DNA of 64,000 nucleotides from positions 1 through 64,000 of the forward strand of contig JALHRJ010000002.1 of assembly GCA_022841475.1 (NCBI GenBank). The letters are read 5' to 3'. The stretch comes from Cyclobacteriaceae bacterium. Its GTDB lineage: Bacteria > Bacteroidota > Bacteroidia > Cytophagales > Cyclobacteriaceae. The translations under genes were made by a program, and so were the position numbers. Below, in pieces: positions 11,025 to 64,000 of this stretch (position 1 is the first letter of the stretch; the number at the start of each line of letters is the position of its first letter). Below the pieces are notes generated by a model. It was given only the letters and a program-made list of their open reading frames with translations. It was not told the origin of the DNA and searched no databases.

Positions 11025-14000
11025 ATGTGCAACGATTTTGTTCATCTCCATGTTCACACTGAATATTCGCTATTAGATGGCGCATCTCAAATTGATGACC
11101 TTGTTAAACGCGCTATCGAATTAGGGCAAAAAGCTATTGCAATAACTGATCATGGTGCTATGCATGGTGTAATTGATTTTTATCGCGCTTGTAACAAGCA
11201 AGGTATCAAACCTATACTTGGCATGGAATCTTATATGGCTAAACGTAGTCATTTAATAAAGGACGCTACTGAAAGAAACCCTTATCACTGTCTTTTGTTA
11301 GCAAAAAACAAGCAGGGTTATAATAACCTGATGAAACTTTCTTCTATTGCACATGTGGATGGTTACTATTATCGACCCCGTATCGATAGTGCATTATTGG
11401 AAAAATATCATGATGGGATTATTTATTCTAGTGGCTGCATTGCTTCTGAAATCCCTTCCTTATATTTGAATGGTAAGGAACAAGAAGCTGTAGCTGCTAT
11501 TAATTATTACAGAGGCTTGTTCGGTGAAGATTTTTATCTTGAATTGCAACCGCGTGAACACAGTGACGACCAAAAAACACTGAACAAATGGTTGTTATCC
11601 ATGTCTAAGAAAACTGGCGTGAAAGCTATTGCTACAACCGATGCACATTATATCCGGCGCGATGATGCTAAAATTCATGATATTTTACTTTGTGTTCAAA
11701 CTGGAAGTAAGGTTAGTGAAACACAAAGAATGCGTTTTGATGAAGATACATATTATATTAAAAGCTACGATGAAATGGCTGTTGATTTTTCAGGTGCAGA
11801 ATTTGTTTTACATAACACGCTTGAAGTAGCTGAAAAGATTGATGTTCACTTTGACAAGGACGCTTATCATCTGCCTGAGTATACAGTGCCTCTTGGTTAT
11901 ACATCAGAAACATTTTTGCGGGAGATGTGTTTTGATGGTTTGAAGTGGCGCTATGGCGAAGTTACAAAAGAATTAACTGATAGACTTGAATATGAGTTGT
12001 CTGTTATTAACAAGATGAATTTCTCTACTTACTTTTTGGTTGTTTGGGATATTTGTGAATTTGCGCGTCAAAATGATATATGGTGGAATGTACGTGGAAG
12101 CGCAGCCGGGAGCGTAGTTTCTTATGTTCTTGGGATTACCAGTATTGAACCTATATCAGCCGGATTGTTTTTTGAACGTTTTTTGAATCCCAATCGTATT
12201 ACAATGCCCGACATTGATTTGGACTTTCAGGATAACCGCCGTAACGAATTAATCGATTATGTGGTCAACCGTTACGGAAGCGACAAGGTTGCAGCTATTA
12301 TTACATTTGGAACTATGGGCGCAAAAACATCGCTAAAAGATGTTGGTCGCGTTTTGGATTATCCACTTGACGAAGTTAACAAAGTGTCAAACTTAATTCC
12401 GACAACCCCCAAGATGAAAGCATTGTCCGATTATCTTGAAATTATACCTGAGTTGAGTGATTTATATAATAAAGACAGTCGTGTTAAAACTTTGTATGAT
12501 AATGCAATGTCGCTTGAAGGAAAAACGCGCCACACCAGTCTACATGCCGCTGGTATCATTATTGCTGACTTACCCCTGTCTGATTATATTCCATTGCATC
12601 GATTGACAGGTAAATCTTATGATAACACTGATCTAAAAATGGCGACACAATTTCCAATGGGATTGTGTGAAGAACTTGGACTTCTCAAGATTGATTTCTT
12701 AGGTTTATCGACGCTAACTATTATGCGAAAAGCCTGCGAGATGATTGAAAAGCGTCATGGTATTCATTGGGATATTGATAACATTCCTTACCAACATGGT
12801 ATGTACGAACAACATGACCATTTGTTAGATGAGGCTTATCGCCTTATTACAAATGGCAACACCGCTGGCGTGTTTCAACTTGAAGGTTCGGGGATGACTG
12901 CTATGTTGAAACAAATGAAACCGACGCGATTTGAGCATATTGTTGCGGGAGTCGCATTGTATCGACCCGGCCCAATGGATTATATTCCAAACTATATCCG
13001 CCGAATGCACGGGGAAGAAGAAATTGTTTACCATCACCCCAAACTTGAACCAATATTGAAAGAAACTTACTCGGTTATCACTTTCCAAGAACAATTGATG
13101 CAATTGGCAATGGATTTGTTTGGTTATACACCATCTGAAGCAGACTTTTTACGAAAAATTGTATCAAAATCAAAGCGCGAAGAAATGGCGAAGGAAACAG
13201 TTCGATTTCATGAAAAAGGAAAAGAACAGGGTCTCGACGAAGAACTTATCAATACGATCTGGGAAGAAATTAAAACTTTTGGACAGTATGCCTTTAATAA
13301 GTGTTTAGCGGGAAACACACTTATTTTTGATGCTGATACTGGGCAGAAACACCGAATTGATGACCTTTTTAATGGACACGTTTCCATATCACATGTGTTG
13401 TCTGTTACTGATAACTTAAAAATAGTTAAGCAGCCAGTTCGTAAGATTATGATGAACGGAACGAAAAAAATTTATCGCCTAACACTAAAAAGCGGAAAAA
13501 CTATTGACGCTTCTTCTAATCACCCGTTCTTAACTTACGATGGATGGAAGTCACTTGAAGAATTGAATGTTAAAGATTTGATTGCAACTCCGAGATATAT
13601 ACCTGAACCTTTGTTTAATAATAGGTGGGAAGATTATCGTCTTATAACACTGGGTTACTTAATTGCAGAAGGCAATTTAGCACATCCATCTTCAGTATAT
13701 TATAAATCGAATTCAGAATTAGAGACAGATGATTTTATTGTCCATGCAGAAAAATTTGAAAACACTTCGATTAAAAAGTATCAAAGACCTAATGGAGCTT
13801 ACGATGTGTGGTCTAGACGTATTGACAAACAAAAACAACAAGGACTTTTTAATTGGATTAAAGAATTGGGGTTACACGGGTCTATTGCTACAAACAAACA
13901 TATTCCGCGACCAGTTTTTTCATTGTGCAGTGATAACATAGCATTGTTATTAGGCAGGATGTGGACAGGGGCTGGACATATTGGAGTTTCAACAGGTGGC

Positions 14001-15602
14001 TCTAAAAATGTTTTTTACGCTACATCATCTTTTGCGCTGGCACAGGACGTTCAACATTTATTACTTAGATTGGGTATTAGAAGTGTTATTCATACTGCAC
14101 AATTTAAATACAGAGATGGTTTAAAAACTGGTTATCAAATTTGGATAACTTCACCAGAAGCCATTAATAATTTTATTGAACTTGTTGTACCTTATATTTT
14201 GGGGAATAAGTCTAATGTTGGAAGGAATTTAACTATTCGTTTTGACAAAGAATTCAAAGATGTTATTCCAAATAATATTCGGTTCTATATTCGACAAATA
14301 ATTACTAATAATGGTAAAACTTGGAAGGAAATTTCTGATGCTACTGGAGTTAGTACATCTGCAATACGGACTGACTCTGGTGGGCGTGGAGTAAGAAGGG
14401 GCTACCAAAGAACTACAATTCGTAAAATTGGTACTTATTTGCAAGATGATTTTATACTGAAACATGCAGATAGTGATATTTTTTGGGATGAAATCAAAAG
14501 CATAGATTATCTCGATGAGCAAGTGGTTTACGATATTGAAGTTGATGGACACCATAACTTTGTGGCGAATGATATATTTGTTCATAATAGTCATGCCGCC
14601 GATTATGCTAAGGTCAGTGTTCAAACTGCGTTTTTGAAAGCGCACTATCCGATTGAGTATATGTGTGCGCTTCTATCGACTTATGTAGATAACAAAGATC
14701 GGATGGTGTTGTTTTTAGACGAGTGTAAGCAAAAGAATATACGCTTACTCCCGCCTGATATTAATGCTAGTTCTAAATCGTTTGAAATCGAACCATTTGC
14801 AGCAAATGTTGATTCTATCCGCTGCGGATTTGATTTGGTTAAACAAGTTGGTTCTAAAGTTATTGACTTGATTATTGAATCGCGTCAATCAATGCCATTC
14901 AAATCAATTCATGATTTGATTGAAAGGTTAGATATAAGCAAGATTAACAGTCGTGCTTTGCAAAACTTAATTAAGGTTGGCGCTTTTGATCGTTATGGAA
15001 GTCGCTTTGACTTGTTGCAAATAGCTGATGACTTAAAAAAAATCAGCAAGAAATATTGGGGTGCTAGTAAAGACAAGAAAACTCAAAACAAATTATCGTT
15101 GTTTGATATGGGCGAATTTACCCAAACTGGTCTGAATTTTGATATAAATGAAATGATTGCAAAAGCTGACGATTCGCCTTATACTGAATATGATGTTTTT
15201 GAATGGGAAAAAGACTTACTCGGATTTTACGTTAGCGCTCGTCCAACGGATAAATATAGAAGCGTTTTTCGATCAATATTGACTGTTCCGATTACTGAAG
15301 TAATTAACAATCACGAGAAATACGATGGGAATTCAGTTCAGGTTGCAGGTGAATTAACAAAGATACTCCCAACTGTTACTAAAAATGGTTATTCAATGGC
15401 TTTTGCCACATTGGAGGATTGGTATGACACGGCTGGTACGATTAAGATAGTCCTTTTTCCGAAGATTTTTGATAAGTACAAAACAATGCTTCATGAAAAA
15501 CAGTATGTTTCAATTAAGGGTAAAGTCGATAGTAGCTATCGCGATACAACAATTATTGTGGATAACATCACAGACTTCACCGATAAAACTTTAAGGTCTT
15601 AA
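11025..15602 (+). CDS. dnaE: DNA polymerase III alpha (DnaE) with intein
   Basis: Replicative C-family DNA polymerase, 1525 aa precursor and 1096 aa after intein removal. An N-terminal PHP domain (VHLHVHTEYSLLDGASQ; AITDHGAMHG) precedes the palm with catalytic D396 and D398 (PDIDLDFQDNRR). Finger and tandem HhH sequences follow, and an OB-like domain lies near the end (SVQVAGELTKILPTV). An in-frame intein (codons 760-1188) interrupts the conserved FNK/SHAADYA motif. ATG 11025 begins MCNDFVHLHVH, the usual family start; an upstream TTG at 11001 lies in the terminator hairpin. No separate exonuclease subunit or clamp is seen in the window. Confidence 0.95.
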   Translation: MCNDFVHLHVHTEYSLLDGASQIDDLVKRAIELGQKAIAITDHGAMHGVIDFYRACNKQGIKPILGMESYMAKRSHLIKDATERNPYHCLLLAKNKQGYNNLMKLSSIAHVDGYYYRPRIDSALLEKYHDGIIYSSGCIASEIPSLYLNGKEQEAVAAINYYRGLFGEDFYLELQPREHSDDQKTLNKWLLSMSKKTGVKAIATTDAHYIRRDDAKIHDILLCVQTGSKVSETQRMRFDEDTYYIKSYDEMAVDFSGAEFVLHNTLEVAEKIDVHFDKDAYHLPEYTVPLGYTSETFLREMCFDGLKWRYGEVTKELTDRLEYELSVINKMNFSTYFLVVWDICEFARQNDIWWNVRGSAAGSVVSYVLGITSIEPISAGLFFERFLNPNRITMPDIDLDFQDNRRNELIDYVVNRYGSDKVAAIITFGTMGAKTSLKDVGRVLDYPLDEVNKVSNLIPTTPKMKALSDYLEIIPELSDLYNKDSRVKTLYDNAMSLEGKTRHTSLHAAGIIIADLPLSDYIPLHRLTGKSYDNTDLKMATQFPMGLCEELGLLKIDFLGLSTLTIMRKACEMIEKRHGIHWDIDNIPYQHGMYEQHDHLLDEAYRLITNGNTAGVFQLEGSGMTAMLKQMKPTRFEHIVAGVALYRPGPMDYIPNYIRRMHGEEEIVYHHPKLEPILKETYSVITFQEQLMQLAMDLFGYTPSEADFLRKIVSKSKREEMAKETVRFHEKGKEQGLDEELINTIWEEIKTFGQYAFNKCLAGNTLIFDADTGQKHRIDDLFNGHVSISHVLSVTDNLKIVKQPVRKIMMNGTKKIYRLTLKSGKTIDASSNHPFLTYDGWKSLEELNVKDLIATPRYIPEPLFNNRWEDYRLITLGYLIAEGNLAHPSSVYYKSNSELETDDFIVHAEKFENTSIKKYQRPNGAYDVWSRRIDKQKQQGLFNWIKELGLHGSIATNKHIPRPVFSLCSDNIALLLGRMWTGAGHIGVSTGGSKNVFYATSSFALAQDVQHLLLRLGIRSVIHTAQFKYRDGLKTGYQIWITSPEAINNFIELVVPYILGNKSNVGRNLTIRFDKEFKDVIPNNIRFYIRQIITNNGKTWKEISDATGVSTSAIRTDSGGRGVRRGYQRTTIRKIGTYLQDDFILKHADSDIFWDEIKSIDYLDEQVVYDIEVDGHHNFVANDIFVHNSHAADYAKVSVQTAFLKAHYPIEYMCALLSTYVDNKDRMVLFLDECKQKNIRLLPPDINASSKSFEIEPFAANVDSIRCGFDLVKQVGSKVIDLIIESRQSMPFKSIHDLIERLDISKINSRALQNLIKVGAFDRYGSRFDLLQIADDLKKISKKYWGASKDKKTQNKLSLFDMGEFTQTGLNFDINEMIAKADDSPYTEYDVFEWEKDLLGFYVSARPTDKYRSVFRSILTVPITEVINNHEKYDGNSVQVAGELTKILPTVTKNGYSMAFATLEDWYDTAGTIKIVLFPKIFDKYKTMLHEKQYVSIKGKVDSSYRDTTIIVDNITDFTDKTLRS
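13302..14588 (+). other. Intein in DnaE with a probably crippled homing endonuclease
   Basis: 429 residues between FNK and SHAADYA. Block A starts with Cys1 (CLAGNTLIFD); block B has SSNHPFLT; block F/G is YDIEVDGHHNFVANDIFVHN followed by Ser+1, so splicing should work. Between them lies a LAGLIDADG endonuclease: block C LGYLIAEGN keeps its acid (E), but block E reads LLLGRMWTGAGHI, with Ala (GCT, 13971-13973) where an Asp is normally required. A helix-turn-helix (TWKEISDATGVSTSAIRT) follows. The splicing call is strong; loss of cleavage is inferred from one residue. Confidence 0.9.
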
Positions 15603-21931: not shown

Positions 21932-22567
21932 TTACCTTTTTGACCTAAAAAACGGTGTTTTCTTTTTTGTTTCTTTTTTACTTTTCTTTGAATAATAACG
22001 CTGTTTATTACGATAACGCTTATTACTCCATTCTAAACGATTTTCGTTATATTCGTCTTTTTTCTTTTTGTAAGCATCTGATTTTAACCATGCTATATAT
22101 TCTGTTGGATTTGTATAATATCCCGGTTTCCAACCTTTTCGATCTGCGTTATACCATGCGGGATTCATGCGATGAGATAATATTTTGTTAGTTAGCTTGT
22201 GTCCCTGCCGCCTTATTTCTGCTATCCATGCGTCTTCAAGTCGATTTGCATCTGCTATATCATCACATTCCCATTCGTCTAGAATTTTTATTTTAACTTC
22301 TGCACCATTTTTTTTGATTGCGTTGATCTTGTTTAGTTTTGCTTTGTTGCTAACATCGGGTTTCTCTTGAAAAACCAAACCCAATAATTCTAATGCAGAA
22401 AAACTTCGACTGTTTTCGTATTGTTCTGCTTCACTTAGATGTTGTAAAATGCGACTGTTAGGACGTTTAGTTCTGCCAATATAAAAAGGCTTATCATTTT
22501 CATCCAATAAGGCATAGACAAAAAAGTGTCCGTAACTATTTTCGTTTTTCGTTTGCGATGAATTCAT
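21932..22567 (-). CDS. GIY-YIG endonuclease
   Basis: About 211 aa from ATG 22567 (MNSSQTKNENSYGHFF); an upstream ATG at 22618 lies deep inside tmk. The GIY-YIG core is clear: FFVYALLDENDKPFYIGRTK gives the first strands, followed by the catalytic Arg in PNSRILQHLSEA, and a Glu near RLEDAWIAEIRRQG. A basic C-terminal tail with repeated Lys and Arg and modular NUMOD-like stretches (NPTEYIAWLKSDAYKKKK) would bind DNA. Free-standing GIY-YIG enzymes in phages are usually homing endonucleases. The gene overlaps the 3' end of tmk by 32 bp. Confidence 0.78.
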   Translation of the reverse strand: MNSSQTKNENSYGHFFVYALLDENDKPFYIGRTKRPNSRILQHLSEAEQYENSRSFSALELLGLVFQEKPDVSNKAKLNKINAIKKNGAEVKIKILDEWECDDIADANRLEDAWIAEIRRQGHKLTNKILSHRMNPAWYNADRKGWKPGYYTNPTEYIAWLKSDAYKKKKDEYNENRLEWSNKRYRNKQRYYSKKSKKETKKKTPFFRSKR

Positions 22568-23150
22568 CAACGTATGCTGCAATGTCACTACTAACCTTTT
22601 CAATATTTTGTGTAGCATCTATTTTCCTAACATTTGGAAGTGTTTCTAACCAGTCTTCATAACCATCTTGTACTTTCTTATAAAAACTGACTCCACTATT
22701 TTCAATTCTATCATGCTTCCCGCTGAATCTGTTTTCAATTAAGTATTCAAGCGGAGCATGTAAGTAAAAAATAATATTTGGAGTAATGTTCTGTGTAGCA
22801 AACATACACATATTATAAACACGGTACGCACCGATGCCACGTCCATAACCTTGATAGGCAATGGTTGATTCGTTAAATCGATCACAAATGACAATCTTAC
22901 CTTGCATAAGTGATGGTTTTATAACTTTTGATACAAGTTCTGAGCGTGATGCCAAGAATAAAAATAGTTCGGTTTCTGTTTCAAGGTCTTTATCCTTTTG
23001 TAACAAAATTTCCCTGACCGTGTTTCCTATCTCTGTTGTTCCGGGTTCTTTTATAGTTAATACATCATGTCGCTGGTTTAAGTGATTATGTAAAAGCTCG
23101 ACTTGTGTTGTTTTTCCAACCCCGTCAAGTCCTTCAAATGTGATAAACAT
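22536..23150 (-). CDS. tmk: Thymidylate kinase
   Basis: 204 aa; phosphorylates dTMP to dTDP for phage DNA synthesis. P-loop FEGLDGVGKTTQ at 4-15, the EPGTTEIG segment, the DRF motif (ICDRFNESTIAYQGYGRG) and the LID region are all present. Length fits the bacterial family. Its ATG overlaps the stop of the 76-aa gene upstream, so the two are translationally coupled. Confidence 0.9.
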   Translation of the reverse strand: MFITFEGLDGVGKTTQVELLHNHLNQRHDVLTIKEPGTTEIGNTVREILLQKDKDLETETELFLFLASRSELVSKVIKPSLMQGKIVICDRFNESTIAYQGYGRGIGAYRVYNMCMFATQNITPNIIFYLHAPLEYLIENRFSGKHDRIENSGVSFYKKVQDGYEDWLETLPNVRKIDATQNIEKVSSDIAAYVDEFIANEKRK

Positions 23151-23380
23151 TATTCGCTTCCTTCGGTGTCTCTTTTTTCTGCTAATTTAAGTATTGGGAG
23201 AATTTTCATTTCCTGTGTTGTTATACGTCTTGGTTTGTTCAGTCTTTCATTATCTCCTGGTATTACTGATGGAAGCCATCGATTAAGCGACGTTCTAGCT
23301 TTTCTTCTTAACATATCCAACACATTTTCGCGCAATGGTGTGCCGCCAAATGAAACTTTGTCTTCGTGAACATTCTGCAT
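23150..23380 (-). CDS. Hypothetical protein, 76 aa, start supplied by the TnpB element
   Basis: Not recognised. The reading frame ends at the tmk start, as a real operon gene would. Its first codons (ATG CAG AAT GTT CAC) lie inside the right end of the TnpB element, which also occurs at two other places in the window. The element has therefore either replaced the gene's original 5' end or supplied a new start. The rest (KVSFGGTPLRENVLDMLRRK and onward) is basic and helical. It may be a truncated remnant that is still translated. Confidence 0.5.
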   Translation of the reverse strand: MQNVHEDKVSFGGTPLRENVLDMLRRKARTSLNRWLPSVIPGDNERLNKPRRITTQEMKILPILKLAEKRDTEGSE

Positions 23381-23479
23381 AGTCTAAAGACCAGCAGCTT
23401 CTACAGCACGTTTGTGCTTACCTTTGCCTTGCGGCATTGGCAGAGGCGCTGCGTTATGCTGTACGGACGTGTCCCATCC
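23366..23479 (-). ncRNA. Predicted omegaRNA scaffold at the tnpB 3' end (copy A)
   Basis: The last codons of tnpB and the right end fold as GCAG-CGCCU-CUGC, UGCC-GCAA-GGCA, GCAC-AAAC-GUGC and a terminal CUGC...GCAG stem holding GUC-UUUA-GAC. This is where TnpB guide RNAs are known to arise. The guide would be the flank beginning GAAGACAAAGTTTCA. Two further copies exist at 31370-31482 and 62490-62603. Confidence 0.7.
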
Positions 23480-24562
23480 GCTTTGTTTCAAAATGTTAAT
23501 CGCGGCGTTGTGATCACGATCTAAACTTAAACCGCAATCGCATTGAACCCATCGATCTGCTAACGTTAATTCCTCAAACATTGCACCACAATTCGAGCAA
23601 CACTTTGATGTGTAAGCGGGGTTTACAAACACTGTTTGACGCCCAGCTTCTTCCGCTTTGTTCGTCAATAATTGTCTGAAGACGCCCCATCCAGCATCTA
23701 AAATGCTTTTGCTCAATTTGTGATTTTGTACCATGTTTTTAATTCGCAAATCTTCGCAAACTATCAAATCGTAATTCTGTACCAGCTTATAAGTGAGCTT
23801 ATGTGCAAAATCTGTTCGCTGATTTTTGCTATGCTCGTGTTGTCGCTGCAACTGTAACAATGCCTTGCGACGATTCTTGCTGCCTTTCTTCTTTCGTGCT
23901 AAAGCCCGTTGCAAAATTCGCAGCTTCTTCTGACTTTTACGATAAAACTTTGGATGTTCCACTTTATCGCCATCGGATGTCGTCACCAACGCTGCAAGTC
24001 CGACATCAATACCAATAACTTGTCCAGTCTTGGGTAAGGGAGACTTATCCTCTACTTCGCAAGCAAAACAAGCATACCATCGACCCGCCTTGAAAACAAT
24101 ACGGACTGCTTTGATTTTGCCTTCAATCGGTCTATGCCAGCGAACGGTAACGCGCCCTATGCTAAATAGCTTTAAGCGCTTACCATCTAACTTTGCCCCA
24201 ACTCCAAACTGCTTAAAATTAAAGCTGTTAAAGCGATTGTATCCCTTAAAACGGGGATACCCCGGCTTCTGACCTGCTTTAACCCGCCGAAAAAAGGCTT
24301 GAAATGCTTTGTCTAAATCGTCGGCTACCGTCTGTAAAGTTTGCGAAAAAACAGCTTTAGCCTGTGGGAATGTTTGACGATAACGGATTGCCATCTTTTC
24401 TTGTTCAGATTTGCTAACACTTCGTTTCTCGAATTCGTAAGCTAACTTTCGATCTTCCAGACACATGTTATAAAAGTGACGACAAACTGAAAGCGTATTA
24501 AACATACTCTTTTCTTGTGTCGGTGTTGGATAGAGTCGATACTTAAAAACTTTGATTCCCAA
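23384..24562 (-). CDS. tnpB: TnpB RNA-guided nuclease (IS605 type)
   Basis: About 392 aa. RuvC residues are intact: first Asp in IGIDVGLAALVTT, Glu in LIVCEDLRIKNM, last Asp in SLDRDHNAAINIL. The zinc finger has all four cysteines (CCSNCG and CDCG). TnpB proteins cut DNA next to a short motif, guided by an omegaRNA made from their own 3' end. ATG 24595 lies inside an extended -10 motif (TGCTACAAT), so translation more likely starts at TTG 24562 (then GIKVFKYRLYPT), with AAAAGG upstream. The DNA is less A+T rich than its neighbours. Expected to be active. Confidence 0.88.
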   Translation of the reverse strand: MGIKVFKYRLYPTPTQEKSMFNTLSVCRHFYNMCLEDRKLAYEFEKRSVSKSEQEKMAIRYRQTFPQAKAVFSQTLQTVADDLDKAFQAFFRRVKAGQKPGYPRFKGYNRFNSFNFKQFGVGAKLDGKRLKLFSIGRVTVRWHRPIEGKIKAVRIVFKAGRWYACFACEVEDKSPLPKTGQVIGIDVGLAALVTTSDGDKVEHPKFYRKSQKKLRILQRALARKKKGSKNRRKALLQLQRQHEHSKNQRTDFAHKLTYKLVQNYDLIVCEDLRIKNMVQNHKLSKSILDAGWGVFRQLLTNKAEEAGRQTVFVNPAYTSKCCSNCGAMFEELTLADRWVQCDCGLSLDRDHNAAINILKQSGWDTSVQHNAAPLPMPQGKGKHKRAVEAAGL

Positions 24563-24727
24563 AACGATAAAACCTTTTATTCTGTATGCTTGCATTGTAG
24601 CACAAAAAAAGGTGTCCCTTTGTAAATTTCTTACATTTTTTTTATATTTTTCTTGCGTTATTCATATAGTTCAATTGTATCATATAAATGAAATTTGAAC
24701 AGAGTTAGATTTTGAAAGGAAAATATT

Positions 24728-29887: not shown

Positions 29888-31051
29888 TTAGATACTAAAT
29901 GCTGACAATTCGCCAGCATGGTTTACCAATGCACGTTGGATAGACTCCAACGAGGGCAGTTCTGCCAAAGCCCGCAGAAAAATTCCACGAGCGCCATTCA
30001 CGTCTCGGTGCATGGTGATGCCATCCGAACCGCGAATCGTTTCACTAGACCCGATATTGACCATTTCCCCCGACCAGCTACAGGTTTTGCTGGTGTAGGC
30101 TTCATTCACTTCGATCACTGTTTTTCCGCATTGCATCGCCGCGACTTTGAGGCGTTTCTTGAATTTGAAATGCGCCCAAGTGAGCATCGAGCGCACCGCC
30201 TTTGATTGCAACTTGCGCTGGGCGCGTTTCGCCATCTGCGACGTTTCAAAGGTGGGAATGAGAATGATGTCGAAATTGTCCACCATGAAGCGGATTGTTT
30301 TAGTGTGGAGTTCGTCGCGCAGGTCTTTAACTTTCCAGCGCAAACGATTAGCTGCTTTCCGCATCCGATAGCGTTGTTTCCTGCTTTTTGAAGTGCTGGT
30401 ACGGGAAATAAGATCGTCCAGGTGACGACACAACCGTACCAGTCGCCCAAAATCGTGCTGCCCGATCATGCCTGCCATGTCGGGCGAAAAGAATGTCTGG
30501 AACGTGCGAACTCCGGGGTCTAGTGCCACGATGCGAGCTTGGTTTTCGCCCGGTAGTATCGTGGTCTTATGCGGAACACACAGAAACCAGCGCCCTTGCT
30601 GCCAACTGAGTTCACAATCCTGAAAATCTTCTGGTAAGTTTTCGGTGTAATCGATTGCGCCCGCAATCGTTGGGTAGATACCACTTGGTTTTACCGCTGA
30701 TTTTGGTATGTAACAGGTTTGTTTAGGGGATTTGCGACTTTTGAAGTGTAGTTCAGAAAGTTCTCCTGTGCGGCGATACTTTTGCTTGGCAGCGGTGAAA
30801 GCATCGCAGGCTTCCTTAACAGCCATTTTCTTGATCTGAAACGGGATTTCACGCGCCCAATCGGGCAGTATTGGAAAGATCACATCTTTGGCAATATCCG
30901 TCCAGACGGGTCGCTTGCCTTCCAGTGCCTTCAGGTAGTCCAGTGTTTGGTTGTAGACAAAACGTGAAGCACCCAACCACTTACGAAAGATCGTCCGTTG
31001 TTTCACTGACGGATAAAGCCTGATCTTGCGCGATTTCGTCGCGATATTTAC
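29888..31051 (-). CDS. tnpB: TnpB nuclease (IS607 type)
   Basis: About 388 aa from the first residues that match the family (VNIATKSRKIRLYPSVKQRT); no standard start codon is evident there, and the longer open frame upstream is a shadow of tnpA. RuvC residues are present: Asp in IVALDPGVRTFQTFF, Glu in ILIPTFETSQMAKR, Asp in TMHRDVNGARGIFL. The zinc finger reads KTCSWSGEMV, with Ser where a second Cys is often found. Unrelated in detail to the IS605-type TnpB at 23.4 kb. It may be active, but translation start and metal site are doubtful. Confidence 0.75.
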   Translation of the reverse strand, partial: VNIATKSRKIRLYPSVKQRTIFRKWLGASRFVYNQTLDYLKALEGKRPVWTDIAKDVIFPILPDWAREIPFQIKKMAVKEACDAFTAAKQKYRRTGELSELHFKSRKSPKQTCYIPKSAVKPSGIYPTIAGAIDYTENLPEDFQDCELSWQQGRWFLCVPHKTTILPGENQARIVALDPGVRTFQTFFSPDMAGMIGQHDFGRLVRLCRHLDDLISRTSTSKSRKQRYRMRKAANRLRWKVKDLRDELHTKTIRFMVDNFDIILIPTFETSQMAKRAQRKLQSKAVRSMLTWAHFKFKKRLKVAAMQCGKTVIEVNEAYTSKTCSWSGEMVNIGSSETIRGSDGITMHRDVNGARGIFLRALAELPSLESIQRALVNHAGELSAFSI

Positions 31052-31369
31052 GGATACTTTGCATTCGGGCTGCAAAGACACTAAGGATGGCGAGAAGGTC
31101 TTTGAGAAGTTCGTCGGCGTGGTTGGTGTGATGAGACTTACTGAGAACCACGACTTGTCCACTGTTGCGTTCGATAAGCCACTCGATAAACTCAAAGCTG
31201 AACCTTGCGAGTCCATCGCGGTGGGCAACCACAATTGTGAACTTGTCTCCTTGTAAGATGCGTTCCAGTAGGGTTTTAAGCCTACGCCTTTTGAAGTTGA
31301 TGTTACTGGCAATGTCAGTGATAACTTCTGCATACGGTTCTTTCGTCTTTAGATAAGCGATCTGTTGTT
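30981..31369 (-). pseudogene. tnpA: Truncated IS607 TnpA serine recombinase
   Basis: Recognisable from IAYLKTKEPYAEVITDIASN and FEFIEWLIERN to LLAILSVFAARMQSIRKYRD. The N-terminal MerR-like domain and the catalytic YARVSS serine region are gone, and the usual DRLAR motif reads DGLAR. Upstream it is fused in frame to scaffold copy B, where one extra T abolishes the tnpB stop. It cannot be an active recombinase. Confidence 0.8.
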
Positions 31370-31482
31370 GTGAACATTCTGCATAGTCTAAAAGACCAGC
31401 AGCTTCTACAGCATGTTTGTGCTTACCTTTGCCTTGCGGCATTGGCAGAGGCGCTGCGTTATGCTGTACGGACGTGTCTCAT
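31370..31482 (-). ncRNA. Orphan omegaRNA-like scaffold, copy B
   Basis: 113 bp nearly identical to the tnpB 3' end at 23366-23479, with no tnpB attached. All four stems of copy A are kept except one closing pair (GCAC/AUGC). An extended -10 promoter lies just upstream, with a predicted start at about 31479, the 5' end of the scaffold. The adjacent sequence that would serve as guide (AACAACAGATCGCTTATC) is tnpA sequence of the IS607 element. Confidence 0.65.
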
Positions 31483-31485
31483 TGA

Positions 31486-31494
31486 ATTATACCA
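31486..31494 (-). promoter_or_regulatory. Extended -10 promoter for copy B
   Basis: Minus strand TGGTATAAT (31494 to 31486), predicted start A at 31479. CTTTTTGTGGTATAATTCAA here resembles CTTTTTTTGTGCTACAATGC before tnpB copy A, so the promoter may have been carried over from the full element by an internal deletion. No good -35 is seen. Confidence 0.55.
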
Positions 31495-61570: not shown

Positions 61571-62371
61571 TTAGCGAGTTCCTGCAACGGCGACATAATC
61601 AATATCGATTGACTTTGTTGCACCTGACAAACTCACCAATGAAATCCAAGGGGTCAAAATAGCTGTAGTTGCTACAGCCAATAAGTGTGTTGCAACCAAC
61701 GTGCCATCCACGAAGAAGTAAGCATCGCCATCCGAGTTAACAGCAATACCTAATTTCTGGAAAGTCGTACCAGGTGCAGCCGTTAGCGCAGTTGCAGCAG
61801 GTGTTCCCGCGTTAACCGTATTAACCGCCCATGCAGTCATACTTGCATCGGTATCATAACCGAAGATTGCAGCATTATCCGCTACATCAACAACGCCAGC
61901 CGCGCTGTGATTGCTGAATGCTAAACCAGCAGTTTCAGACAAAGCATCGCTTAAACCAACTTCAATAGCTCTTAGTGTGATAGCAGTAACACTTGCAACA
62001 CGAGCTTCGAAAAAAGTCCATCCTTTTGAAACGGTGAAATTCAGACCTAGCGCCAATGTTGCGAAATCGTTGTCGTCTGTGTCAGTTGTTAACCGAACAA
62101 CGCCGGGTGTCTGAGCATTGATTGCTGCGGTTGCACCAGTTGATAAGTTTGTCTGCCAAGTAGCATTGACTGTATCGCCTAGAAAGTCGTCAAACCATGC
62201 TAAGTATTCCGGGTTGTTCAACATCAAGCTCCAACGCAAACCTTCCCAATTGTGAATTGACGGGCGTCCTGCCTTTGCGCCAATTACAATTGCGCTGCGA
62301 TCAACATCGCTACTCCCGGCTTGCGGGAATGAAATGTTGGTGTTAGCTTGTTCGTAATCTCTTATAGCCAT
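61571..62371 (-). CDS. Head-associated beta-sandwich protein, about 266 aa
   Basis: Preferred start MAIRDYEQANTN at 62371; ATG 62383 is possible. The first 60 residues include a typical virion N-terminus (DRSAIVIGAKAGRPSIHNWE). The remainder is a jelly-roll/LamG-like sandwich (NDFATLALGLNFTVSKGWTF; FEARVASVTAITLRAIEVGL; LGIAVNSDGDAYFFVDGTLV). Probably a capsid decoration or surface-binding protein by position two genes after the capsid gene. A strong hairpin follows. Confidence 0.68.
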   Translation of the reverse strand: MAIRDYEQANTNISFPQAGSSDVDRSAIVIGAKAGRPSIHNWEGLRWSLMLNNPEYLAWFDDFLGDTVNATWQTNLSTGATAAINAQTPGVVRLTTDTDDNDFATLALGLNFTVSKGWTFFEARVASVTAITLRAIEVGLSDALSETAGLAFSNHSAAGVVDVADNAAIFGYDTDASMTAWAVNTVNAGTPAATALTAAPGTTFQKLGIAVNSDGDAYFFVDGTLVATHLLAVATTAILTPWISLVSLSGATKSIDIDYVAVAGTR

Positions 62372-62436
62372 ATATATTACCATTCTTCTAATATATTACC
62401 AGTTTTTATCCCCGAAGGGAAGTTACTTTTTGTATT

Positions 62437-62464
62437 ATAGAAGCAGTTTCAAGTCTGCTTCTAT
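62437..62464 (-). terminator. Hairpin in the gap after the decoration gene
   Basis: ATAGAAGCAG (62437-62446) pairs with CTGCTTCTAT (62455-62464). It lies downstream of orphan scaffold copy C and upstream of the next gene; its sequence resembles the tube-gene hairpin (GAAGCAG / CTGCTTC). Confidence 0.58.
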
Positions 62465-62472
62465 TTACAAAG

Positions 62473-62640
62473 TGTCTACGGTTAATTCAGTGACATTCTG
62501 CATAGCCTTAAAGACCAGCAGCTTCTACAGCACGTTTGTGCTTGCCTTTACTTTGCAGTATTAGCAGAGGCACTGCGTTATGCTGTACGGACGTGTCCCA
62601 TCCAATTCAGTGACCGCTATTAGCGATATTAACCGTAGAC
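62473..62640. repeat. 13-bp inverted and 10-bp direct repeats around copy C
   Basis: GTCTACGGTTAAT (62473-62485) is repeated inverted as ATTAACCGTAGAC (62628-62640), the latter covering the last codons and stop of the 152-aa gene. AATTCAGTGA is repeated directly at 62484-62493 and 62604-62613, tightly flanking copy C. Removing copy C and one direct repeat restores a 13-bp stem with a 21-base loop, so copy C appears to have entered an existing stem-loop. Confidence 0.8.
62490..62603 (-). ncRNA. Orphan omegaRNA-like scaffold, copy C
   Basis: 114 bp homologous to the tnpB 3' end but without tnpB. It has diverged (about 10 changes), yet the stem UGCC-GCAA-GGCA of copy A has become UACU-GCAA-AGUA: two base pairs changed on both sides, pairing kept. 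In the old tnpB frame the same changes give A-V, P-L, M-I, P-L and G-S, so protein coding is not what is conserved. It would be transcribed as the 3' UTR of the 152-aa gene. The potential guide begins TGAATTAACCGTAGACAC. Confidence 0.68.
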
Positions 62641-63087
62641 TAACACAGCTTCGTTATATGAACTGTGCTGATCGAAATCCCCAGGATAACGCAAACGATG
62701 ATTAATCAAAGTCACGCTGTAAGGAGTTGTTCCTGCTGCACCAACGGTTACTTCGGCGCGAACAAACTTGAAACCGTTTTTGTCATCAAGCGCACCCGGC
62801 GCAATTTCGATAGTCTTAATTACTTCATCGGTTGACGAGGTAATTTGTGTGATTGCTGCGCCAGTAATTGCCTTGCGACCAGTTCCGCTTGAATCAGATG
62901 CCTGATAGAGTGCCACATCAACAGTTTCAGTTGTAGCACCACAAGTTAACATGAATACAGAGCGATCACTGCTTCCGCCATCGGCAAAAGGAGAAACCCA
63001 AGCTGTATTTAAGTCGCCATTGCTGGCTGACGGAGCAATTAGTAATCTGACGTAATGTGATTCGCTGAAAGTGTGTACATTTGCCAT
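62629..63087 (-). CDS. Capsid decoration protein (probable), 152 aa
   Basis: Small beta protein directly downstream of the capsid gene: VRLLIAPSASNGDLNTAWVS, RSVFMLTCGATTETVDVALY, FKFVRAEVTVGAAGTTPYSV. Size and place fit a head decoration or stabilisation protein. Its stop codon lies within one arm of the 13-bp inverted repeat. AGAAGG precedes the start. Confidence 0.68.
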   Translation of the reverse strand: MANVHTFSESHYVRLLIAPSASNGDLNTAWVSPFADGGSSDRSVFMLTCGATTETVDVALYQASDSSGTGRKAITGAAITQITSSTDEVIKTIEIAPGALDDKNGFKFVRAEVTVGAAGTTPYSVTLINHRLRYPGDFDQHSSYNEAVLVYG

Positions 63088-63130
63088 TTTTGTTTACCTT
63101 CTTTACTTATATATACAATCAACAATTTTG

Positions 63131-63159
63131 GCAGCGCCGTTTGAAAATAACGGCGCTGC
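63131..63159 (-). terminator. Strong hairpin after the major capsid gene
   Basis: GCAGCGCCGTT (63131-63141), loop TGAAAAT, AACGGCGCTGC (63149-63159), 13 bp beyond the capsid stop, GC-rich in an A+T-rich genome. Followed on the minus strand by CAAAATTGTTGATT rather than a U-run; probably partial termination or mRNA protection. Confidence 0.62.
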
Positions 63160-63172
63160 TTACTTTGTTGTA

Positions 63173-64000
63173 TTAGCTCGCGCTAACTTTCAAAACCTTG
63201 ATTGCGGCAGGCTGAATGACCTGTCCACCAAGACGAGCGCGGCCCAAGAACAAGACCTGATCTTTTTCTGCGTATTTTGCATCATCGAAACGACGAATGC
63301 TGAAATCGACACGTTTACCAATCAAGTAACCCTTGCTCAAGTCACCCAAAATGATCGGATATTGATTTGTTTCAACGCTGTCAGCATATTCATTGTAAAC
63401 AATCGGACGACCCAACAATCTGTCAGGAACGCCAACTGCCTGCAAGCTCTCATCGCGCTGATCGATCAAGTAGTTACCTTCGCCATCTTTCAATGTAGCG
63501 ATCTGCAAACCAGTGTCAGAGTTCATGTACCACTTTGCACGAGCGCGGTATCCACGCGGTAAATGGAACAGCATTTCTTTCAAAACATCAGCAGTCACGA
63601 TACCATTCGGTGAACCAGTGGGGACATAACCACCAACAGTTGTCACACCCGCTGAACGGCTACCAATGACACGGTTGTTGGTCACGATACCTTCTAACTT
63701 AGCCTGACCATCGCCACCCCAAATCAACTCGTCGTAAGCAACCGCAACGGCCTCGCTGAATGCTTCGTTGATTTCATCCTCAAGTGAGAAAGTCACATCT
63801 TCAAGGGCGCTATTACCAGCAGTCAAGCTGATAAGCATGACGTGAATCGGCACATCGGTCTGAGCGTACTGATCTTCGATTGTGCGTGACTCGGTATCAT
63901 CAGTGATAACCTCATCAGGCCAACGAACCTTAGCAGCGTGGGCGCGACGTGCATCGGTTGTCACAAGTGTCGGCTGAACGATACGATCACTGGTTGTCGT
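63173..64000 (-). CDS. Major capsid protein, HK97 fold (5' end beyond window)
   Basis: The open frame runs to the window edge, so the start is outside; at least 276 residues are visible. The C-terminal two thirds match HK97-type capsid proteins: a helix and loop with FSEAVAVAYDELIWGGDGQA, GIVTADVLKEMLFHLPRGYR, the P-domain strand WYMNSDTGLQIATLKD, LLGRPIVYNEYAD, and the A-domain pattern IILGDLSKGYLIGKR with KDQVLFLGRARLGGQVIQPA near the end. Upstream genes beyond the window are expected to include portal and protease. Confidence 0.87.
   Translation of the reverse strand, partial: TTTSDRIVQPTLVTTDARRAHAAKVRWPDEVITDDTESRTIEDQYAQTDVPIHVMLISLTAGNSALEDVTFSLEDEINEAFSEAVAVAYDELIWGGDGQAKLEGIVTNNRVIGSRSAGVTTVGGYVPTGSPNGIVTADVLKEMLFHLPRGYRARAKWYMNSDTGLQIATLKDGEGNYLIDQRDESLQAVGVPDRLLGRPIVYNEYADSVETNQYPIILGDLSKGYLIGKRVDFSIRRFDDAKYAEKDQVLFLGRARLGGQVIQPAAIKVLKVSAS

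Follow-up and report, generated by a model that had tools for sequence, protein, structure and literature searches.

The omegaRNA of ISDra2 TnpB is one of the closest known counterparts of the locus analysed here. According to the passages of PMC10097598 that deal with this RNA, its 116-nt scaffold contains a stem 1, a UUUA loop and a pseudoknot in which positions -5 to -3 pair with positions -105 to -103, and an RNA cut back to stem 1 allowed editing equal to or above that of the long form (PMC10097598). The orphan scaffold described below, found in a 64,000-nt stretch of DNA that we call the window, resembles this RNA as portrayed there in its scaffold length of about 115 nt, in a stem 1 loop whose pairing partner immediately precedes the guide, in a UUUA-type loop of the terminal hairpin and in a guide located directly 3′ (PMC10097598). 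It differs from the ISDra2 omegaRNA, to which it is likened by description, in having no tnpB in cis, in its distance of 39 kb from that gene and in one additional base in the terminal loop.

Among transposons of the IS200/IS605 group, PATE-like units have been described, and the relevant passages of PMC7290912 report one from Halanaerobium that retains 28 nt of the left end, the last 58 nt of tnpB and the full right end. As depicted in these passages, such units share with the orphan the retention of the tnpB 3′ end and the right end and the lack of genes (PMC7290912). In the orphan, the right-end hairpin is present and genes are absent. Unlike PATE-like units it has no left end, and nothing resembling the left ends of its relatives was seen beside it in a comparison by eye. 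The passages of PMC7290912 concerned with these units do not treat them as guide RNAs.

TldR proteins are phage-borne, nuclease-dead repressors for which the corresponding passages of PMC13418256 describe gene regulation with guides down to 6 nt, and a figure legend in the same paper mentions that a frameshifted locus may still supply guides in trans (PMC13418256). As with TldR in that account, both the TnpB-type protein and the guide are phage-encoded in the present case (PMC13418256), whereas the phage TnpB retains the RuvC triad. A survey of titles and the beginnings of abstracts, with most subscription journals outside its coverage, showed no work on guide-only TnpB units among the papers listed. 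Orphan IscB omegaRNA loci, in which a scaffold stands without a nuclease gene, were reportedly described by Altae-Tran in 2021; the nuclease here is a TnpB and not an IscB.

Results

The phage and its three scaffold copies

The window covers positions 1-64000 of a contig of 196 kb, which belongs to an assembly of 5.7 Mb. This contig represents all or part of the genome of a tailed phage, with recognisable genes for the major head protein, the portal protein and the terminase. A tnpB gene on the minus strand (23384..24595) encodes a protein of 403 aa with Pfam OrfB_IS605 and TNB domains, in which the RuvC residues D197, E281 and D361, conserved in all three aligned TnpBs, are present together with cysteines 333, 336, 352 and 354. 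Neither tnpA nor a left end was seen beside tnpB on inspection by eye. Near tnpB, at 21932-22618, lies a gene for a GIY-YIG domain protein (weak Pfam match).

The earlier note had reported a copy of the tnpB 3′ end 39 kb from tnpB. DNA and model matches confirm this copy at 62490..62604 on the minus strand, where 115 nt extend from the foot of stem 1 to a terminal GTCAC. The orphan is a copy of the tnpB 3′ end without tnpB in cis; it matches aa 371-403 of the protein alone, with 79% identity and one stop. At the 3′ end of tnpB itself, the resident scaffold (23366..23480, minus strand) has an extra U near its 3′ end and a C.A mismatch in P3. A third scaffold (31370..31485, minus strand), here called copy 31, has no tnpB upstream; two of its stem 1 pairs are broken, and it leads into a truncated resolvase frame. 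That resolvase-type frame, which begins within copy 31, is overlapped by a second, different TnpB of 481 aa (29888-31442). A 151-base query around the orphan matched 23370-23479 at 92% and 31374-31488 at 89%. The extra U before the terminal CAC is found in the resident copy and copy 31; the orphan does not have it and ends in GTCAC like most relatives. In the resident copy four of the five pseudoknot pairs form, with G-U replacing G-C, and the spacing to the guide is one base longer. A search of the window against Rfam gave no match at the gathering score.

Structure of the scaffold family

Relatives of the phage TnpB were gathered from genome contigs (the best 80 of 215) and from viral contigs (51). 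The titles of the eight best relatives in genome contigs name Chloroflexi, Anaerolineae, Aggregatilineales or Chloroploca. At the locus L171, a terminase large subunit frame (11984-14872) with an apparent intein insert and a long aspartate run has further matches to DNA primase, helicase and endonuclease families. Inspection of 24 tnpB-end loci revealed one common architecture with a variable middle: stem 1, whose loop forms a pseudoknot with the 3′ end, then a middle part with branches and a terminal hairpin. A covariance model for searching the phage and its relatives, a check put forward in the earlier note, was built from six seed sequences (the three window copies, L095, L018 and L019), and exactly three copies were found in the 5.7-Mb assembly, by DNA and by the model (E<=1) alike. 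The orphan, itself among the six seeds, covered the full model (1-114) with 123.8 bits.

In the seed structure including the pseudoknot, 92.5% of 227 cells are paired and 19 of the 39 pairs show changes on both sides; when the partners were shifted by 1-3 columns as a control, the values fell to 28-43% of cells and 3-8 pairs. Double changes in P3 and P5 also occur in L018 or L019, and the pseudoknot, as read by eye, appears among relatives as GACAC/GTGTC, GACGC/GCGTC or GAAAC/GTTTC. Applied to the window and 49 loci, the seed model yielded 43 matches, of which three belong to the window; 40 loci had one match each and nine had none. Of the 40 locus matches, 39 are no more than about 100 nt away from where the tnpB match ends, whereas the one in L036 is displaced by roughly a further 1 kb and truncated by the end of the contig. 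RNAalifold detected double changes at 24 of 25 pairs across the 43 matches, in an alignment fitted to the model.

The region 62490-62604 is a full omegaRNA scaffold, which begins at the foot of stem 1 and terminates in GTCAC like the rest of the family. Its elements are all read on the minus strand. Stem 1 (P1; 62588..62604), mapped by hand from the alignment, pairs 62600-62604 with 62588-62592 in five of five pairs; base 62604, which is also the last base of a direct repeat, pairs as U-G. Within the stem 1 loop, 62593-62597 forms the 5′ side of the pseudoknot, whose 3′ side lies at 62492..62496, with four of five pairs formed. P2 (62526..62587; 62580-62587 with 62526-62533) encloses P3 (62570-62573 with 62538-62541) and P4 (62563-62566 with 62543-62546), and the GCAA-capped stem P5 occupies 62549..62560 (23425-23436 in the resident copy). 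The terminal hairpin P6 (62498..62521) forms nine of nine pairs and has a bulged U and the loop UUUAA instead of UUUA.

Divergence of the orphan from the resident copy

The orphan and the resident copy differ by eight substitutions in 102 indel-free columns, and all eight hit columns that are paired in the family structure, which make up 72 of the 102. This comparison excluded column 1 (the junction, where a U-G pair still forms), the base inserted in the loop and the U that is lacking close to the 3′ end. None of the substitutions breaks a pair; outside the pseudoknot the orphan forms 34 of 34 pairs versus 33 in the resident copy, and 38 versus 37 of 39 when the pseudoknot is included. Two pairs have changed on both sides. 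Both belong to P5, for which the earlier note had described changes on both strands in two of four pairs; this is borne out at 62549-62560 versus 23425-23436, where G-C became A-U and C-G became U-A from resident to orphan. In alignment column 33, an exchange of C for U turns the C.A mismatch of the resident copy into a U-A pair in the orphan. In the next stem, C-G is replaced by U-G and G-U by G-C, and beyond the two double changes and the mended mismatch the remaining substitutions are changes to or from wobble pairs. The terminal stem, said previously to differ only by U-A to U-G, indeed shows no other change in pairing, but its loop is also one base longer.

The chance of such a pattern was estimated by random draws. 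On the family structure, for which the orphan had been part of the seed, random transitions kept all pairs in 1.5% of draws, produced at least two double changes in 0.7% and did both in 0.03%. The corresponding values were 1.2%, 1.0% and 0.05% for draws of the observed base changes and 0.03%, 0.2% and 0.0007% when any substitution was allowed. When the resident fold alone served as structure, seven of the eight substitutions were in paired columns (67 of 102) and all 34 pairs were kept; transitions then gave 7.2% for kept pairs, 0.7% for double changes and 0.17% for both. The overall joint chance is 0.03-0.2%, depending on the structure chosen, and the power of the test rests on the double changes, as keeping all pairs is not rare by itself (1.5% or 7%); eight substitutions are few.

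The divergence of the orphan indicates selection on RNA pairing. This selection may be older than the loss of tnpB by the copy, which qualifies the earlier proposal that the orphan is kept as RNA: the full scaffold and the pairing-preserving divergence agree with it, and the selection behind them possibly dates from before the loss. The non-conservative amino-acid changes cited in the same context are real but uninformative, because the TnpB tail is variable in the family, and this argument was dropped. The passages of PMC10097598 on ISDra2 TnpB likewise describe its C-terminal domain as variable.

Orphan scaffolds in other genomes

The model was also applied to the sources of chosen loci, 25 genomes or records (14 cellular, 11 virus), with up to 150 candidates scored in each. 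On this basis 38 matches were obtained in 22 of the 25. According to tblastn with the phage TnpB, 26 of the 38 follow a TnpB of the family that ends at the scaffold and one follows a divergent TnpB; two more lie at contig ends, and nine have no TnpB or its tail alone. These nine orphans are confined to four of the 14 cellular genomes, and the 11 virus records searched contained no orphan scaffold. Since all orphans apart from those of the Chloroploca query described below came via the covariance model, broken orphans are under-counted.

In seven of the nine orphans, a left-end-like sequence follows TTTAC, TTGAC or ATGAC and lies 178-265 nt upstream of the scaffold; this motif was read by eye and with one pattern, and not from empty sites. 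The same seven contain no ATG-started frame of more than 68 aa in the scaffold and the 320 nt before it, and look like small gene-less transposons. Six further places fitting the left-end pattern were rejected by eye (L179 660 and 575, L189 593, L193 482, L208 606, L200 22). The left end of L176 is the weakest, and L198 and L200 have none; of tnpB, L198 carries only the tail (aa 359-403). The guides of the nine orphans are all different.

In a model-fitted alignment of 11 orphans, the nine and the two of the window, 94.9% of 314 cells are paired, compared with 32.5-49.5% in slid controls, and double changes occur in 20 of 34 pairs. A query made of left end and spacer, which carries no bias towards intact scaffolds, detected five places in the Chloroploca mongolica assembly: the left end of a tnpB element and four small units, two of them identical over the query, all with a scaffold. 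The four units (L193, L208, L209, L212) consist of a left end, a conserved leader some 180 nt long that folds strongly, and the scaffold, with no tnpB-like sequence. A single promoter-like site precedes the scaffold in each of L209, L179 and L189 (shuffle means 0.0, 0.1 and 0.7), the last of which means little because of its shuffle mean; among the four units scanned, L212 had no such site before its scaffold. Rfam gave no match at E<=0.05 in seven of the nine orphan loci, including L193, L209 and L212 (L200 and L208 lay outside this search). Orphan scaffolds are therefore not unique to the phage. Guide-only units of this TnpB family occur in several genomes of Chloroflexota, so that the phage case stands out less and the question gains in generality.

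Genomic surroundings and predicted guide of the orphan

The orphan lies 24 bp past the stop of the phrog_28483 gene (62629..63087; function unknown), which is directly upstream of it and itself downstream of the major head protein gene (63173..64000, start outside the window), all on the minus strand. A scan of 62300-63200 detected no promoter-like and no terminator-like site on the strand of the orphan, and one terminator-like site on the plus strand (63130-63160). With a single gene between the orphan and the major head protein gene, read-through transcription from the head genes is plausible.

The edges of the orphan coincide with two copies of an 11-bp direct repeat, AATTCAGTGAC, at 62484..62494 and 62604..62614. 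The whole lies inside a 13-bp inverted repeat with 100% identity (62474..62486 and 62628-62640), between whose arms the orphan is located. We considered two putative routes of insertion from this arrangement: an RNA-mediated event, which would fit ends close to the RNA ends and the 11-bp repeat, and an insertion behind GTCAC that might have left a remnant of the left end. Little weight attaches to a TTTAC situated 15 bp from the repeat, since this motif occurs 200 times in the window, counting both strands.

DNA searches of phage and plasmid records gave no match to the orphan locus, and a 27-base exact scaffold pattern had none in viral contigs. For the neighbouring gene (62629-63087) one distant relative was found in each of two collections, and for the gene at 61571-62383 none in viral contigs. 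Thus no phage relative holding the orphan locus was found among phage and plasmid records and viral contigs, and the locus is represented by one genome only. In a DNA search of the genus and order of the assembly, one of 96 genomes matched, and in a model search of its class with stricter filters one of 295, in each case the assembly itself. Accordingly, none of the 294 other sampled genomes of this class matched the model under these filters. The best TnpB relatives in genome contigs, by contrast, bear the Chloroflexi, Anaerolineae, Aggregatilineales or Chloroploca titles given above, and the phage contig may have been binned with a genome other than that of its host.

By analogy with the ISDra2 omegaRNA, the 16 nt 3′ of GTCAC, TGAATTAACCGTAGAC (62474..62489, minus strand), are the predicted guide. 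In the assembly it occurs at its own place and, with two mismatches, at six others (four for a reversed-pattern control), none of which is directly behind TTTAC or TNAC. Exact 16-mer places in the viral collection numbered 15 for the guide of the orphan, 18 for that of the tnpB copy and 13 for that of copy 31. None of the 15 lies directly behind TTTAC or matches past 19 nt, and for all three guides no place in this collection matches past 20 nt or directly follows TTTAC. From their short extent and the lack of TTTAC, the viral places were treated as chance matches, without a formal expectation. A convincing target for the orphan guide was thus not found in the assembly or in the viral collection.

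Discussion

The orphan may be a complete TnpB omegaRNA scaffold that has lost tnpB, is constrained as RNA and provides the phage TnpB with a second guide in trans, a proposal to which we give somewhat less than an even chance. Scaffold, structure and pairing-preserving divergence are direct observations within this proposal; transcription, binding, target and the time at which selection acted are what we infer. Most probably the head genes, which lie on the same strand, would deliver the orphan RNA by read-through. The phage TnpB, made 39 kb away, would trim and bind it, as expected from the reported behaviour of TnpB proteins, and the complex would carry UGAAUUAACCGUAGAC as a second guide in trans. 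Possible targets would be genomes with the guide sequence behind a suitable motif, for example rival phages without the insertion.

We counted in favour of a second guide the structure, the kept pairs, the start at stem 1, the intact RuvC residues, the position beside the head genes and the orphans of relatives. Counted against it were the restriction to a single genome, the lack of a promoter-like site, of a convincing target and of orphans in virus records, as well as the missing left end and the broken stem 1 of copy 31. As the pairing test is blind to whether selection acted before or after the loss of tnpB, and no relative holding the locus was found, our confidence remains below one half.

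About equally likely, and likewise a little short of even odds, is that the orphan diverged within a working tnpB element, was then cut down to the 3′ end and is now a functionless remnant. Against a remnant we counted the cut at the foot of stem 1, the retention of the entire scaffold with no broken pair and the 38 of 39 pairs formed versus 37 in the resident copy. Phage genomes generally shed useless DNA, which we also counted against it. In favour of a remnant, copy 31 in the same phage has two broken stem 1 pairs, and L198 among the relatives is an orphan with a tnpB tail only and no left end; the phage orphan shows neither left end nor promoter-like site nor convincing target.

The locus could also be a PATE-like non-autonomous transposon or what is left of one, its scaffold being kept only as the right-end hairpin for a transposase. 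Such units have been described, at least in the passages of PMC7290912 cited above, and seven of the nine orphans of relatives, with left-end-like sequences and without an ATG-started frame over 68 aa, would fit, as would the scaffold in all four Chloroploca units that were found by left end and spacer. The phage copy, however, has no left end, and a right-end role, although it accounts for the terminal hairpin, leaves unexplained stem 1, P2 and P3, where the orphans show covariation as well; we regard this explanation as improbable. Very improbable is co-option of the RNA as a guided regulator of a phage or host gene or as an RNA element of the head genes, for although it lies beside head genes and within a 13-bp inverted repeat, and nuclease-dead phage-borne relatives are described in passages of PMC13418256 as regulating genes with guides as short as 6 nt, the phage TnpB retains its RuvC residues and the assembly has no site for the full 16-nt guide behind a fitting motif at up to two mismatches.

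Beyond the proposed second guide of the phage TnpB, a more general view, which we regard as rather unlikely, is that TnpB guides can become uncoupled from tnpB: scattered guide-only scaffolds, carried by some genomes of this clade and by the phage, would be used in trans by one TnpB as a dispersed analogue of a guide array, and the phage scaffold beside the head genes would perhaps be a working guide in its own right, which may have spread as a guide-only unit that cuts genomes lacking it. With the covariation model and the listed orphan loci, the idea of guides in trans becomes testable, for instance in Chloroploca. If the orphan is used in trans, it would show how a phage can keep a programmable nuclease with a guide set among its head genes, and a single TnpB working with several guides at once would stand between one-guide transposons and CRISPR arrays.
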